Below are positions 3,093 to 32,616 of a DNA stretch of 35,325 nucleotides, piece after piece; position 1 is the stretch's first letter, and the number at the start of each line of letters is the position of its first letter. Under the pieces are notes generated by a model that saw only the letters and a program-made list of their open reading frames with translations, did not search any database and had not been told where the DNA came from. The stretch is from Acidobacteriota bacterium (GTDB taxonomy: Bacteria > Acidobacteriota > Blastocatellia > Pyrinomonadales > Pyrinomonadaceae), in assembly GCA_020199995.1 (NCBI GenBank), contig JAIVJM010000047.1, forward strand, positions 1 to 35,325. Direction: 5' to 3'. Position numbers and translations under genes: made by a program.

Positions 3093-3162
3093 GTTGAAGT
3101 CGGAACGCTGAGCGCGGAACTAAAAGCGTTTTCAGTTCGTCGTTCTGCGTTCCGACTTCAGC
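3093..3162. repeat. intergenic word-palindrome between tRNA-Cys and tRNA-Gly
   Basis: The arms 3095-3108 and 3147-3160 are perfect 14-bp reverse complements (TGAAGTCGGAACGC and its complement), and the pairing extends by a wobble and a further pair. Inside, GAACTAAAA (3117-3125) pairs with TTTTCAGTTC (3129-3138) with one bulge. The whole tRNA spacer is therefore one long hairpin. It belongs to the window-wide set of palindromes whose arms use a locus-specific word. Confidence 0.75.
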
Positions 3163-3608: not shown

Positions 3609-6015
3609 ATGAATTCTAAACGCAGGGATCATCTCTCGAAGCTCCGAAATTACAGCTGCATCGTCGTCGTCTCTCTCTTCGTCCTGCTCTCGGCGGGCGG
3701 CGCGTTGACAGCGCAGACTTACCAGAAGCCCCCGCAGGCGGTGCTCGACGTGCTGGGCGCGCCCGTCCCGCCCGGGGCTTCGCATCAACCCGAGCACGTC
3801 GGGGCCGCACCTCGCGGGGACTTACATCGCGCTCACGCTGAAGAGAATTTCCGACGGCGCGGAGACGAAGATCGCTCTGCCGCAGGGCGCGAAGGCCGGC
3901 GCGCCCGCGTGGAGCGCAGACGGGAAACGCTTCGCCTTCACGAACACGACCGCAGGCGGCATCGAACTCTGGGCGGGTGAGGCCGCGTCGGGGCGCGTGC
4001 GAAAACTGGAAGGCGTCGCGGTCAACGCGGTCTACGGCGCGCCCGTCCAGTGGATGCCGGACAACCGCACGCTCCTCGTGCGGACGGTTCCCACAAAGCG
4101 GGGCGCGCCGCCCGTCGAGCCGATTGTCCCGAAGTCGCCGAACATTCAGGAGAGCACGGGCAAGACGGGCCCGGTTCGCACCTTTCAAGACCTCCTCGGC
4201 AATGCTTTTGATGAAGACTTGTTCGACTTCTACGCGACGACCCAGCTCGCTTTCGTCTCAGCCGAGGGAGGAAAGGCGACCCCGCTCGGAGAGCCCTCGA
4301 TCTTCCAGACCATCGAGCCCTCGCCTGACGGCACACACATCCTCGTCGCGCGCATCCGACGCCCGTACTCTTACCTGCACCCGCTGAACGCTTTTCCCCG
4401 AGAGGTCGAGGTGTGGGACAGGAGCGCGAAGGCAGTCCACAAGGTCGCGAGCCTGCCGCTCGCCGATGAGGTGCCGATTGAGGGCGTGCCGAAGGGGCCG
4501 CGCGCTTACGAGTGGCACCCGACGGAGAACGCCGCGCTGGTCTGGGTCGAGGCGCTCGACGACGGCGACCCGAAGAAGAAGGTTCCGCACCGCGACCGGA
4601 TGCTGTTGCTGAAGGCTCCATTCACGGGCCCGCCCGTCGAGCTGTTCAAGACTGAGCACCGCTTCGCGGGCTCGCAGTGGGGCGAGCGCGGCGAGTTCCT
4701 CTTGGTCCGCGACTACGAACGCGACCGTCGCTGGGTGCGGACGCAGATGATCGAGCCGGGCAAGCCAGCCTCGGCCCCGCGCGTCGTGTGGAGCCATAGC
4801 GCCAACGAGCGTTACAACAACCCCGGCACGCCACTGACGCGCGTGCTACTGACGGGTCAGCGAGTCGTCCAACGACAGGGCGACTGGATATATTTGACGG
4901 GCGCGGGCGCGACGCCCGAAGGCGACCGCCCGTTCCTCGACCGCCTCAACCTCCAGACGCTCAAGAGCGAAAGGCTCTTCCGCAGCGACGCGCAGAGCTA
5001 CGAGACGGTCGTCGCTTTGATTAAGGACGACGCCACACAATTCATCACGCGCCGCGAGAGGCCCATCGAGCCCTCGAACTTCTACGTCCGCACGCTCGGC
5101 GCGTCTGGTGGCGGGACAAACGGCGGGGCGGCGGCGGATTCGGGTCTGAGGGCTCTCACGCAGATTCCCGACGCGACGCCGCAACTGCGCGACATCCGGA
5201 AGCAGCTCGTGACGTATAAGCGCGCCGACGGCGTTGATCTTTCGTTCACGCTCTACCTTCCGCCCGGCTACAAAGAGGGGACGCGCCTGCCGACGGTCGT
5301 CTGGGCTTACCCGCTCGAATTCAACGACCCGACGACCGCGGGACAGGTCACGGGCTCGACGCAGCGTTACACCTCGATCACGGGCTCTTCGCATCTCTTC
5401 TTCCTGCTCGCGGGCTATGCCGTCCTCGACAATGCCACGATGCCCATCGTCGGCGACCCCGAGACGATGAACAACACCTACGTCGAGCAGATCACGTCGA
5501 GCGCGAAGGCGGCGATTGACAAGGCCGCGGAGATGGGCGTCACAGACCCCGAGCGCGTCGGCGTCGGCGGTCATTCCTACGGGGCCTTTATGACGGCCAA
5601 CCTGCTCGCGCACACAGACCTCTTCCGCGCCGGCATCGCGCGCAGCGGCGCGTACAACCGCACGCTCACGCCCTTCGGCTTCCAGAGCGAGCGGCGGACG
5701 ATCTGGGAAGCGCCCGAAATCTACATCAAGGTCTCGCCCTTCATGAACGCGCACAAAATCAACGAGCCGCTCCTCCTTATCCACGGCGAGGCCGACAACA
5801 ACTCGGGCACTTTCCCCGTCCAGTCCGAACGCATGTATCAGGCCATGCGCGGCACTGGCGGGACAGTCCGTTACGTCACGCTCCCGCTCGAAGCCCACGG
5901 CTACGCCGCGCGCGAGTCTACCGAGCACACGCTCTTCGAGATGATCTCGTGGTTCGACAAGCACGTGAAGAGCGCCCCGCCGCGCGCGAAGAAACTAGAG
6001 AAGGCGGAACGATAG
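3609..6015 (+). pseudogene. S9 family glutamyl-endopeptidase-like peptidase, frame-broken near the 5' end
   Basis: The ATG at 3609, with GGAGGA at 3591-3596, opens a signal-peptide-bearing N-terminus (VVVSLFVLLSAGGALTAQ) followed by YQKPPQAVLDVLGAPVPP. At about 3771-3777 the reading jumps to another frame, continuing as GLRINPSTSGPHLAGTYIAL and then uninterrupted to 6015. From memory, relatives have about 30 extra residues between these parts, so a short segment is missing and the frame is lost. The long frame (first ATG-type start at 3997) keeps a beta-propeller region and a C-terminal alpha/beta-hydrolase domain. Its triad is Ser in GGHSYGAF (Ser codon 5575-5577), Asp in GEADNN (5794-5796) and His in EAHGYA (5896-5898). 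SGAYNRTLTPFGFQ matches the S9D group typified by chloroplast glutamyl endopeptidase. Without its signal peptide the remaining 672-codon frame would not be exported. It is either a pseudogene or a sequence/assembly error. Confidence 0.85.
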
Positions 6016-6016
6016 G

Positions 6017-6190
6017 ACAGTACCGCGAGCGGTAGCGAACGGGTGGGCCGATTGCGGATTGGCGATTGCGGAATGCGGATTAAAATACCTCCTCTCAATC
6101 CGCAATCCTCAATCCGCAATCCTCAATCCGCAATCCTCAATCCGCAATCCTCAATGCTGGTGACCCGCTCGCTACCGCTCGCGGTACTGT
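6017..6190. repeat. nested 174-bp palindrome with 14-mer tandem repeats between convergent genes
   Basis: The outer arms 6017-6044 and 6163-6190 match as reverse complements at 27 of 28 positions. The inner right side is four tandem copies of TCAATCCGCAATCC (6095-6150) plus a partial copy. The inner left side (about 6049-6082) carries the complementary word ATTGCGGATT in degenerate copies. It fills the space between the S9 peptidase stop (6013-6015) and yraN. The right arm encodes the last residues and stop codon of yraN. It could serve as a bidirectional transcription terminator. Confidence 0.85.
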
Positions 6191-6699
6191 TCCCAGCTTC
6201 GTTTGCGGAATTTATCTTCAGTCCAGAAGTTGCGGAGGAGTTCGAGGCGCGGTGGGTGCGCGTGGCCTGTGTCGTCCGCCGGGGGGAGGATGACGGCGAC
6301 GACATCAAAGCGGTGCGGCGCGTCCCTTAAGCCGAGCAGTCGTCGGTAGGCGCGTGCGGCGCGCGTGATCTGTCGCTGCTTGCGGAGGTCTACGTTGGCT
6401 TCGGGGGCGGCGAACCAGTCGGAGGCGCGCGTCTTGACTTCGACGAAGCAGAGCGTCGAGCCCTCGTAGGCGACCAGATCAATCTCGGCCTGCACGACCG
6501 CGCCGCGACGCCCGCGCCCGACGCTGAGCTTGAAGTTCGAGGCGACCAGACGGTAGCCGTGCCCGCGCAGGAAGTCCGCCGCCAACTCCTCGCCGCGCCG
6601 CCCGAGCGCGAGATGCGGCGCGGGTGCGGGCGCATCCGCGTCTGCCGCCGCGTCGAGCGCGAGGCCCCTCAACCGTCGTGTCACCTTCCGCCAGTCCAT
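6172..6699 (-). CDS. yraN: YraN/UPF0102 family nuclease-like protein
   Basis: The 175-residue form from ATG 6699 carries the UPF0102 signature: LGRRGEELAADFLRGHGYRL followed by VASNFK, then AEIDLVAYEGSTLCFVEVKTR, which resembles the D-(E/Q)-x-K core of Holliday-junction-resolvase-like nucleases, then RKQRQITRAARAYRR. The usual GEIDL is AEIDL here. I chose 6699 because the upstream extension to a GTG at 6756 (NRRTRPRNFHFHKR) does not look like the family; CTGAGAGAG precedes 6699, whereas AGAGGAGG directly abuts the GTG, too close for efficient initiation. The gene converges on the S9 peptidase. Its final residues WEQYRER and stop are encoded in the arm of a repeat, so the original 3' end appears to have been replaced. 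The cellular role of YraN is not firmly established. Confidence 0.85.
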   Translation of the reverse strand: MDWRKVTRRLRGLALDAAADADAPAPAPHLALGRRGEELAADFLRGHGYRLVASNFKLSVGRGRRGAVVQAEIDLVAYEGSTLCFVEVKTRASDWFAAPEANVDLRKQRQITRAARAYRRLLGLRDAPHRFDVVAVILPPADDTGHAHPPRLELLRNFWTEDKFRKRSWEQYRER

Positions 6700-20216: not shown

Positions 20217-20332
20217 AGCTATTAGCTGTTAGCTTTTAGCCGGTCATTTGCATCTAAGTTAAGAACGCGTGGAGGGCTCACCGCTAAAAGCCGAAATAAA
20301 AGCTGATAGCTAACTGCTAACAGCTGATAGCT
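20217..20332. repeat. nested word-palindrome upstream of rel
   Basis: AGCTATTAGCTGTTAGC (20217-20233) pairs with 20316-20332 at 16 of 17 positions, and inside it GCTTTTAGC (20232-20240) pairs perfectly with GCTAAAAGC (20283-20291). Arms are made of the word TTAGCT with variants. The structure ends six bases before the rel ATG, which has no Shine-Dalgarno sequence. Confidence 0.75.
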
Positions 20333-26965: not shown

Positions 26966-27035
26966 GAGCAGAAAGCAGTGAGCAGTCGAGGCGGCTGGCC
27001 GGGCCTGTTTGCTTACTGCTCACTGCTTTCTGCTC
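26966..27035. repeat. perfect 21-bp word-palindrome between convergent genes
   Basis: The arms 26966-26986 and 27015-27035 are perfect 21-bp reverse complements built from the word AGCAGT(G/A), with a 28-nt loop. It lies between the ABC-F stop (26956-26958) and the stop of the minus-strand VWA gene (27038-27040), so it would form a hairpin in both transcripts and may end both. Confidence 0.85.
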
Positions 27036-31429: not shown

Positions 31430-32242
31430 ATCGCAGGCTTTCGAGGTCGTGGACAGCGCCCGGACAACCGTCGCGCTCCAGCCACGCGCATCAATGAACG
31501 AATCCGCGTGCCGGAAGTGCGCGTGATCGCGGACGACGGCGAGCAGCTCGGCATCATGAGCACGCGCGATGCGGTGAAGAGGGCGCGCGAGCAGGGACTC
31601 GATCTGGTCGAGGTCGCCGCCACCGCCGACCCGCCCGTCTGTCGCATCATCGACTTCGGCAAGTTTCAGTATGAGACGAAGAAGAAGGCGAACGAGGCGA
31701 AGAAGAAGCAGGTCATCATCGTCGTCAAGGAGGTCAAGTTTCGTCCGGGCACGGACGAGCACGACTACCAGTTCAAGATGAAGCACGCGCGGCAGTGGCT
31801 GGGCGAGGGCGACAAGGTGAAGGCCACGATCTTCTTCCGCGGTCGCGAAATCACGCACCGCGAGCTGGGCGCGCAACTCCTCGAAAAGCTCGAACAAGAC
31901 CTGGCCGACATGGGCGAAGTCGAAGCGCGCCCGCGCATGGAAGGGAACCAGATGTTCCTCATCTTCCAGCCAAAGAAGCACAAGTCAGCGGCCAAGCCCG
32001 AAGGCGCGAAGCCTCCGAGCCCGAAGCCTGAAGCCGCAAAGCCTGAAGCCGCGAAGCCCGAAGTAGCGAAGCCCGAAGTAGCGAAGCCTGTGGTTGCGAA
32101 GCCCGAGCCAACGAAAGCGGAGCCCGCGAAGCCGGAAGCCGCGAAGCCGGAAGCCGCGAAGCCGGAAGCCGCGAAAGCCGAGGGCGGCATCATGCAGGGG
32201 CCGCCCGTGCCGCCGGGAACCGGCGGTCAGGTCGAGCAATAG
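31430..32242 (+). CDS. infC: translation initiation factor IF-3 with AUC start and KPEAA-repeat tail
   Basis: IF3 checks start-codon pairing and keeps the subunits apart. Conserved sequence begins well upstream of the first GTG (31508): [12 protein letters not shown], then [14 protein letters not shown]. In this frame a TGA at 31415-31417 is followed by AGGAGGTGAGG (31417-31427) and then ATC at 31430, so the start is AUC (270 residues). Rare AUU/AUC starts are the known basis of IF3 autoregulation, and an AUC start has been reported in Myxococcus. The N domain, linker ([14 protein letters not shown]) and C domain ([39 protein letters not shown]) are complete. After the normal end come about 80 residues of Lys-Pro-Glu-Ala-Ala repeats and a Pro/Gly tail, which is unusual. 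Second gene of the cluster. Confidence 0.93.
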
Positions 32243-32542: not shown

Positions 32543-32616
32543 AGTGAGCAGTAAGCAGTAAGCAGTGAGCAGTAGAATTGCTTTTACTGCTTGCAGCTCA
32601 CCGCTTACCGCTTACT
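32543..32616. repeat. word-palindrome between rpmI and rplT
   Basis: A 31-nt left arm (32543-32573), a near-tandem series of AGCAGTA/AGCAGTG, faces a 31-nt right arm (32586-32616) of the complementary word. They match at 24 of 31 positions and most mismatches are transitions. The 12-nt loop is AGAATTGCTTTT. Confidence 0.7.

Follow-up and report, generated by a model that had tools for sequence, protein, structure and literature searches.

A dispersed nested palindrome supplies the last residues and stop codon of yraN in an Acidobacteriota genome

How does a conserved gene come to end inside a palindrome? This question is raised by the 35,325-nucleotide stretch of DNA that we analysed (the window; contig JAIVJM010000047.1 of assembly GCA_020199995.1, from a soil bacterium of the Acidobacteriota, forward strand), in which a nested palindrome at 6017-6190 makes up the whole convergent gap between an S9-family peptidase gene and yraN. 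The element fills the entire intergenic space, since the peptidase stop lies one base from its left arm and the yraN stop lies within its right arm. The peptidase flank, a second gene end at the element, was overlooked in the first-pass annotation of this DNA. The locus is composed as follows, from left to right:

3997 to 6015, plus strand: S9-family peptidase gene, the left convergent neighbour (open reading frame list; PF00326, E 3.5e-25); stop TAG at 6013-6015, one base before the element.
6017 to 6044, plus strand: left outer arm and A tip, ACAGTACCGCGAGCGGTAGCGAACGGGT, which contains a small palindrome, TACCGCGAGCGGTA, at 6021-6034; inverted repeat at 27/28, dispersed in the genome.
6050 to 6081, plus strand: inner heptad hairpin (B), left arm, made up of about four GATTGCG-type heptads; inverted repeats at 88%; the same left arm and junction occur in C12 and, slightly changed, in C266.
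6082 to 6093, no strand: loop region AAAATACCTCCT between the B arms; AAATACCTCCTCT, which runs into the array, is common to the sister copy C266.
6094 to 6155, plus strand: right B arm, 4.4 14-mers (8.6 heptads) with four exact TCAATCCGCAATCC (Tandem Repeats Finder); longer than in the sister copies.
6163 to 6190, minus strand: right outer arm and A tip, containing a small palindrome (6173-6186); yraN reads ..A CAG TAC CGC GAG CGG TAG here.
6172 to 6189, minus strand: QYRER codons and TAG of yraN, from the A tip by direct reading and absent from orthologues; the tip further contributes the third base of the Glu codon before them.
6172 to 6699, minus strand: yraN (UPF0102; PF02021, E 3.6e-23, and relatives); ATG 6699 is taken as the start, the upstream GTG 6756 also being possible.

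The two outer arms, of 28 nt each, are complementary at 27 of 28 positions (96%) and enclose 118 nt. Within them lie four exact copies and a partial fifth of TCAATCCGCAATCC, which Tandem Repeats Finder describes as 4.4 copies of the 14-mer (100%) or, alternatively, as 8.6 copies of the heptamer CAATCCG. An inner palindrome pairs 6050-6081 with 6104-6135 or 6118-6149 at 88%, which creates the nesting, and heptamer-pair matches in the window number 14 against 3.3 expected. The DNA folds at -64.6 kcal/mol compared with a shuffle mean of -28.0 (z = -11.9; 0 of 200 shuffles as good), placing the nested palindrome and its four 14-mers, as first described, far outside the shuffled range.

As had also been reported, the C-terminus of YraN is read from the right outer arm: the protein ends ...RKRSWEQYRER, and its stop codon, TAG (minus strand, 6174-6172), falls inside the arm. 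Across the border (marked by a slash) the window reads TGG GA/A CAG TAC CGC GAG CGG TAG, the tip giving the third base of Glu, the last five residues and the stop. YraN orthologues without the palindrome, whose comparison had been proposed as a check, end differently, with KKRRWTE-stop in the closest and RRWAE-stop or RRWER-stop in others, and in no case with QYRER, bearing in mind that tails vary after the last conserved Trp. The first-pass annotation had considered that the element either inserted into the 3' end of yraN or grew across it. Insertion is supported over growth because the arms are dispersed, the nested unit recurs elsewhere with identical junctions and the orthologue ends differ. 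Since no same-genus empty site at the S9-yraN junction was found among the available relatives, we infer the insertion event itself.

The outer arms of the window element are the tips of a family of hairpins of about 75 bp (A), which is both covarying and dispersed. When the outer arm was searched genome-wide as a possible dispersed repeat, its 17-mer gave 33 matches (at most one mismatch) in the same genome, many of them paired in inverted orientation at a distance of about 50 bp, and a covariance model built on 13 copies gave 74 matches over the two strands, or about 37 places. The model also matched in 37 of 60 relatives. L117 and L121, which carry a deletion in one arm, were part of the first alignment and were left out of the model. 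The own-genome copy numbers come from searches and are lower bounds. They are also approximate, because the window genome (G000) is a metagenome-assembled genome (MAG; 88% complete, 5.4% contamination) and some of its contigs look shared with the MAG G025. Contigs C299 and C339 match C216 and C250 of G025 at the same coordinates and with the same sequence, and are therefore probably shared between the two MAGs through contamination. In addition, hisH is present twice in G000 (C170 and C228).

The A consensus reads TCAGTACCG-nnn-GCGGTAGCG-nn-CGGGT, after which come a short loop and the same sequence inverted. There are three subtypes, with CGAG, CCTG and GGAG cores, each dominant in different genomes; no exact match to the CGAG subtype of the window, C266, C12, C188 and the hisH copy on C170 was found in G025. 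Over 26 copies, 17 of 28 stem pairs had changed on both sides and 97.9% of cells were paired, a level reached by none of 500 shuffles and by no slid control. Common descent inflates these counts; the slid controls nevertheless collapse. We found no target-site duplication at A copies. Insertion at palindromic targets was also considered and rejected, as an excess of flank pairing in the same genome was confined to the bases beside the tip (first 8 bases, p = 0.14) and was absent in G014 and G017. Separately, four own-genome loci (L206, L207, L210 and L217) hold a related palindrome with the same outer 17 nt (ACAGTACCGCGAGCGGT) followed by CTTT, or by TTTT in one arm, and tip modules appear to have been swapped between element types.

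Most A copies are extragenic and lie just after stop codons. Where an element end faces a called gene end in the window genome (34 cases), the stop falls before the tip in 25, inside the tip in 7 and beyond it in 2. All seven stops inside tips are in the QYRER frame, a bias (7/9, p = 0.008) that is suggestive because it depends on gene calls. Six of these genes have Pfam support, namely yraN, hisH, purD and the genes for an AraC-type regulator, a DedA-like protein and a spermidine-synthase-like protein, and one, on C298, lacks it. The A tip supplies the QYRER-stop ending to yraN, and other A copies supply the ends of other genes. In relatives, HisH mostly stops shortly after LKNFAE; the HisH of G011 carries an A copy in another frame (SVPPAVAGG...). 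In L146/L075 (MAG11, apparently G025), the convergent S9-yraN pair is kept, and YraN stops about 25 residues early (...GLRIAD-stop), truncated by a B-only hairpin. The first-pass suggestion that such elements can reshape coding ends is thus borne out, both by the five further recognisable genes that end in A arms and by the yraN of another genus. Short-period hairpins also lie close behind the yraN stop in the relatives L060 and L063, and one overlaps the stop in L085. Elsewhere in the window, in-frame 15-bp repeats at 31994-32175 give a KPEAA-type tail to the protein encoded at 31508-32242, which looks like translation initiation factor IF-3.

The inner hairpin B belongs to a family of CAATCCG-heptad hairpins with about 17 loci in the same genome, most of them outside A. 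Its 13-mer occurs in 38 of 60 relatives, with up to 265 matches in one genome, and reversed-pattern controls were almost empty. The left B arm holds about four heptads, while the right arm has 8.6 in the window copy and about 3-4 in C266, and in C12 consists of a diverged CTCCGCA array. This one-sided expansion relative to the sister copies fits lengthening of the 14-mer array by tandem slippage in the window copy, and it also led us to reject a model in which hairpin copying lengthens both arms symmetrically. The earlier claim that the element gives an orientation for its growth is borne out only in part: the array is longest in one arm, which points to slippage, whereas the nesting order, with A outside B and a third hairpin inside B, points inward.

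The composite A[B] is itself a repeated, dispersed element. Composites with common junctions lie at C178, C266 and C12 (C12:79450), and C266 and C12 are the two other loci of the same genome that repeat the window junctions. The window copy and C12 agree at the left junction (GGGTGGGCCGATTGCGGATTGGCGATTGCGGAATGCGGATT) and at the right one (CAATGCYGGYGACCCG), and the window copy and C266 agree in the loop (AAATACCTCCTCT). In genus G025 the nested pattern gave 21 matches, against 0 in the reversed control. The G025 copies that we read carry CCTG tips, yet their right junction (AATCGGCA...CCCG) is similar to that of C188 in the window genome (CGAG tip) and of a G003 copy (GGAG tip), and A[B] therefore appears to be a lineage of elements in which the tips match the local subtype. 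Two G025 copies, L368 (G025:C132) and L370 (G025:C188), are triply nested, with an octamer hairpin of CATTGATC units in the loop of B, within A tips. As separate observations, the sister composite in L125 (G000:C266:18500-20600) interrupts a DnaQ-type exonuclease gene (RNase_T, PF00929) before the end of the domain, and at 1155-1263 the window holds another candidate mobile palindrome, whose sequence is not related to A: a perfect inverted repeat of 32 nt (ACCGTTGACACCCCGCCCCCTCTCAAATATCT) around a spacer of 45 nt.

A candidate mover is found in the relatives. At 10 of 28 loci of one HUH/Y1 gene family, inverted A tips lie within 200 bp on both sides of the gene, compared with 0 of 18 other scored Y1 loci (Fisher p = 0.0036); at these 18 there was no tip within 200 bp on either side, and generic Y1 genes of relatives were accordingly rejected as movers. 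In G002, G037, G029, G004, G008 and G033 the transposase gene takes the place of the A loop, while in G014 a whole A stands on each side of it and in G017:C35 on the upstream side. The tip-bracketed protein carries TNHVHIV (NHVH) and YVINGQ (Y----Q) motifs that resemble class 3 TnpA_Y1, an assignment made by motif and without a class 3 profile score. Its 23.5 bits against the REP_Tyr_transpos cut-off of 80 show that it is not a canonical RAYT, and no relative of solved structure was found by sequence. Because the window's genome (88% complete) gave no match to this transposase at E <= 1e-12, we infer mobility by a class-3-type enzyme. A canonical RAYT or IS200 of the same genome was rejected as mover, its three Y1 genes (L088-L090) having neither A nor B at their flanks, bar one partial arm-like match near L089. 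A further locus, L310 (G017:C127:39691-40197), holds a class-3-type transposase gene and then an A hairpin, fused in frame into a histidine-kinase gene (…IFEPFFTTK-DMWNDRD…).

Taken together, we consider it probable that the window element is a non-autonomous, REPIN/MITE-like mobile palindrome with B as cargo, which inserted at the end of yraN before its array expanded. A class-3-type transposase would recognise the A tips as single-stranded hairpins and move the composite A[B] into the convergent gap between the peptidase gene and yraN, where the insertion would replace the original last codon or codons and the stop of yraN. Such an event would be tolerated because the tip offers an in-frame TAG six codons in and the conserved body of YraN is kept. 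The 14-mer array could then lengthen in one arm by tandem slippage and, once transcribed, the hairpin may have a putative further role at mRNA ends. B may have been carried by A, or may have entered the loop of A first. More tentatively, short-period repeat hairpins could be propagating elements that prefer to enter or grow in existing hairpin loops, building nests such as A[B] and A[B[C]] that the A tips would then take to gene ends, rewriting C-termini.

An alternative that we regard as unlikely is that the QYRER end is ancestral or unrelated to the insertion, in that yraN lost its stop through a point mutation or small deletion and read through into a palindrome that had landed beyond it. 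With 25 of 34 facing gene ends stopping before a tip, read-through into a nearby tip would look identical; on the other hand, in alignments with the RRWER-stop and RRWTE-stop ends, the tip border falls one or two codons at most from where YraN usually stops, and the same in-frame ending is found in six recognisable genes. Somewhat less likely again is a host element kept mainly as a bidirectional terminator or 3' mRNA stabiliser between convergent genes. Its position exactly between two convergent stops and its very stable fold would suit such a role, as would the hairpins at the same junction in L138 (perfect and AT-flanked) and L146 (B). However, positions 5900-6300 contain no intrinsic terminator (GC stem, 3-8 nt loop, T tract), copies also lie at non-convergent sites, including the C266 copy within the exonuclease gene, and dispersal together with the linkage of tips and transposase points to mobility, with which a host role is compatible. 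Quasi-palindromes can grow by template switching. That the nest grew where it stands, out of local sequence and without mobility, through slippage and template switching is nonetheless highly improbable, for although one arm of the window copy does show a clear expansion of the heptad array, unlinked loci have tips, junctions and loop in common and the subtypes differ by compensatory changes across genera.

The probable mobile palindrome resembles several known systems. REPINs are REP doublets that form hairpins (Bertels and Rainey 2011, PMC3116915), and like them A has two inverted conserved ends with covarying, hairpin-forming arms, each end with a small palindrome, a variable spacer, compensatory changes, dispersed and mostly extragenic copies (about 37 places, approximately) and linkage to a Y1 transposase gene in relatives. 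Unlike REPINs, A adjoins no cognate RAYT (class 2 TnpA_REP), the genome's own RAYT (L090) having no A at its flanks, and the linked transposase of relatives is class-3-like and below the REP_Tyr_transpos cut-off. By inspection, GTAG lies inside the A tip, which ends in TCAG/ACAG, rather than as a 5' foot before the stem-loop, and the A spacer can contain a heptad-repeat hairpin or the transposase gene itself. According to Quentin et al. (2018, PMC6006769), class 3 TnpA_Y1 genes occur in Acidobacteria and are flanked by 'atypical secondary structures' present in high copy. The tip-bracketed gene agrees in its NHVH and Y----Q motifs, its phylum and the genome-repeated structures at its flanks (10/28 loci versus 0/18 controls); the window element's own genome showed no such gene at E <= 1e-12. 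The published foot is 5' CnGA; A ends as TCAG...CTGA, with CTGA on one strand, and we do not equate its position with that of the published structure. Heptad cargo and C-terminal donation are features of the window family that the accessible part of PMC6006769 does not describe for class 3.

GTAG-tagged REPs also give TAG stops to flanking ORFs (PMC3733652). In both cases a palindrome terminus supplies the TAG of neighbouring genes; the window differs in that the 28-nt tip has its TAG six codons in and adds QYRER, with GTAG within the tip and not at a stem-loop foot. The CGTC-tagged palindromic elements of Rickettsia (PMC3733652) likewise contribute amino acids to host genes, but they lie inside ORFs, while A tips supply C-termini together with a stop and the A consensus has no CGTC. 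The P6b stem of the Nostoc trnL intron, among the heptanucleotide-repeat stems of cyanobacteria (PMC4476775), has, as B does, 7-nt repeats in both hairpin arms and length changes of 7 or 14 nt. It is an intron stem with the motif TDNGATT or NNTGAGT, whereas B consists by inspection of GATTGCG/CAATCCG units, which match neither the class I nor the class II motif, and occurs in a different phylum, both between genes at many sites and within mobile tips. TAG stops from REP-type repeats (PMC3733652), REPINs (PMC3116915) and Nostoc heptad stems (PMC4476775) are thus already published; in the open-access literature we found no description of tips with heptad-hairpin cargo, or of A as the partner of a class-3-type TnpA.

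Through this family, a class of HUH transposases that has received little study is tied to an identified mobile palindrome with covarying arms, in an environmental phylum (Acidobacteriota), and a REPIN-like element is seen to carry a structured heptad-repeat cargo. Its C-terminal signature, QYR[EL]R, is a readable mark of mobile palindromes absorbed into proteins, including the core enzymes HisH and PurD. The question of why hairpins of unrelated bacteria repeatedly contain 7-nt repeats also gains a setting in which it can be tested. Several different heptad families occur within this one 35-kb window, with other hairpins or arrays of 7-nt period (TTAGCTG, GAGCAGT and AGTAAGC types) at 20217-20332, 26966-27035, 3095-3160 and 32543-32574.
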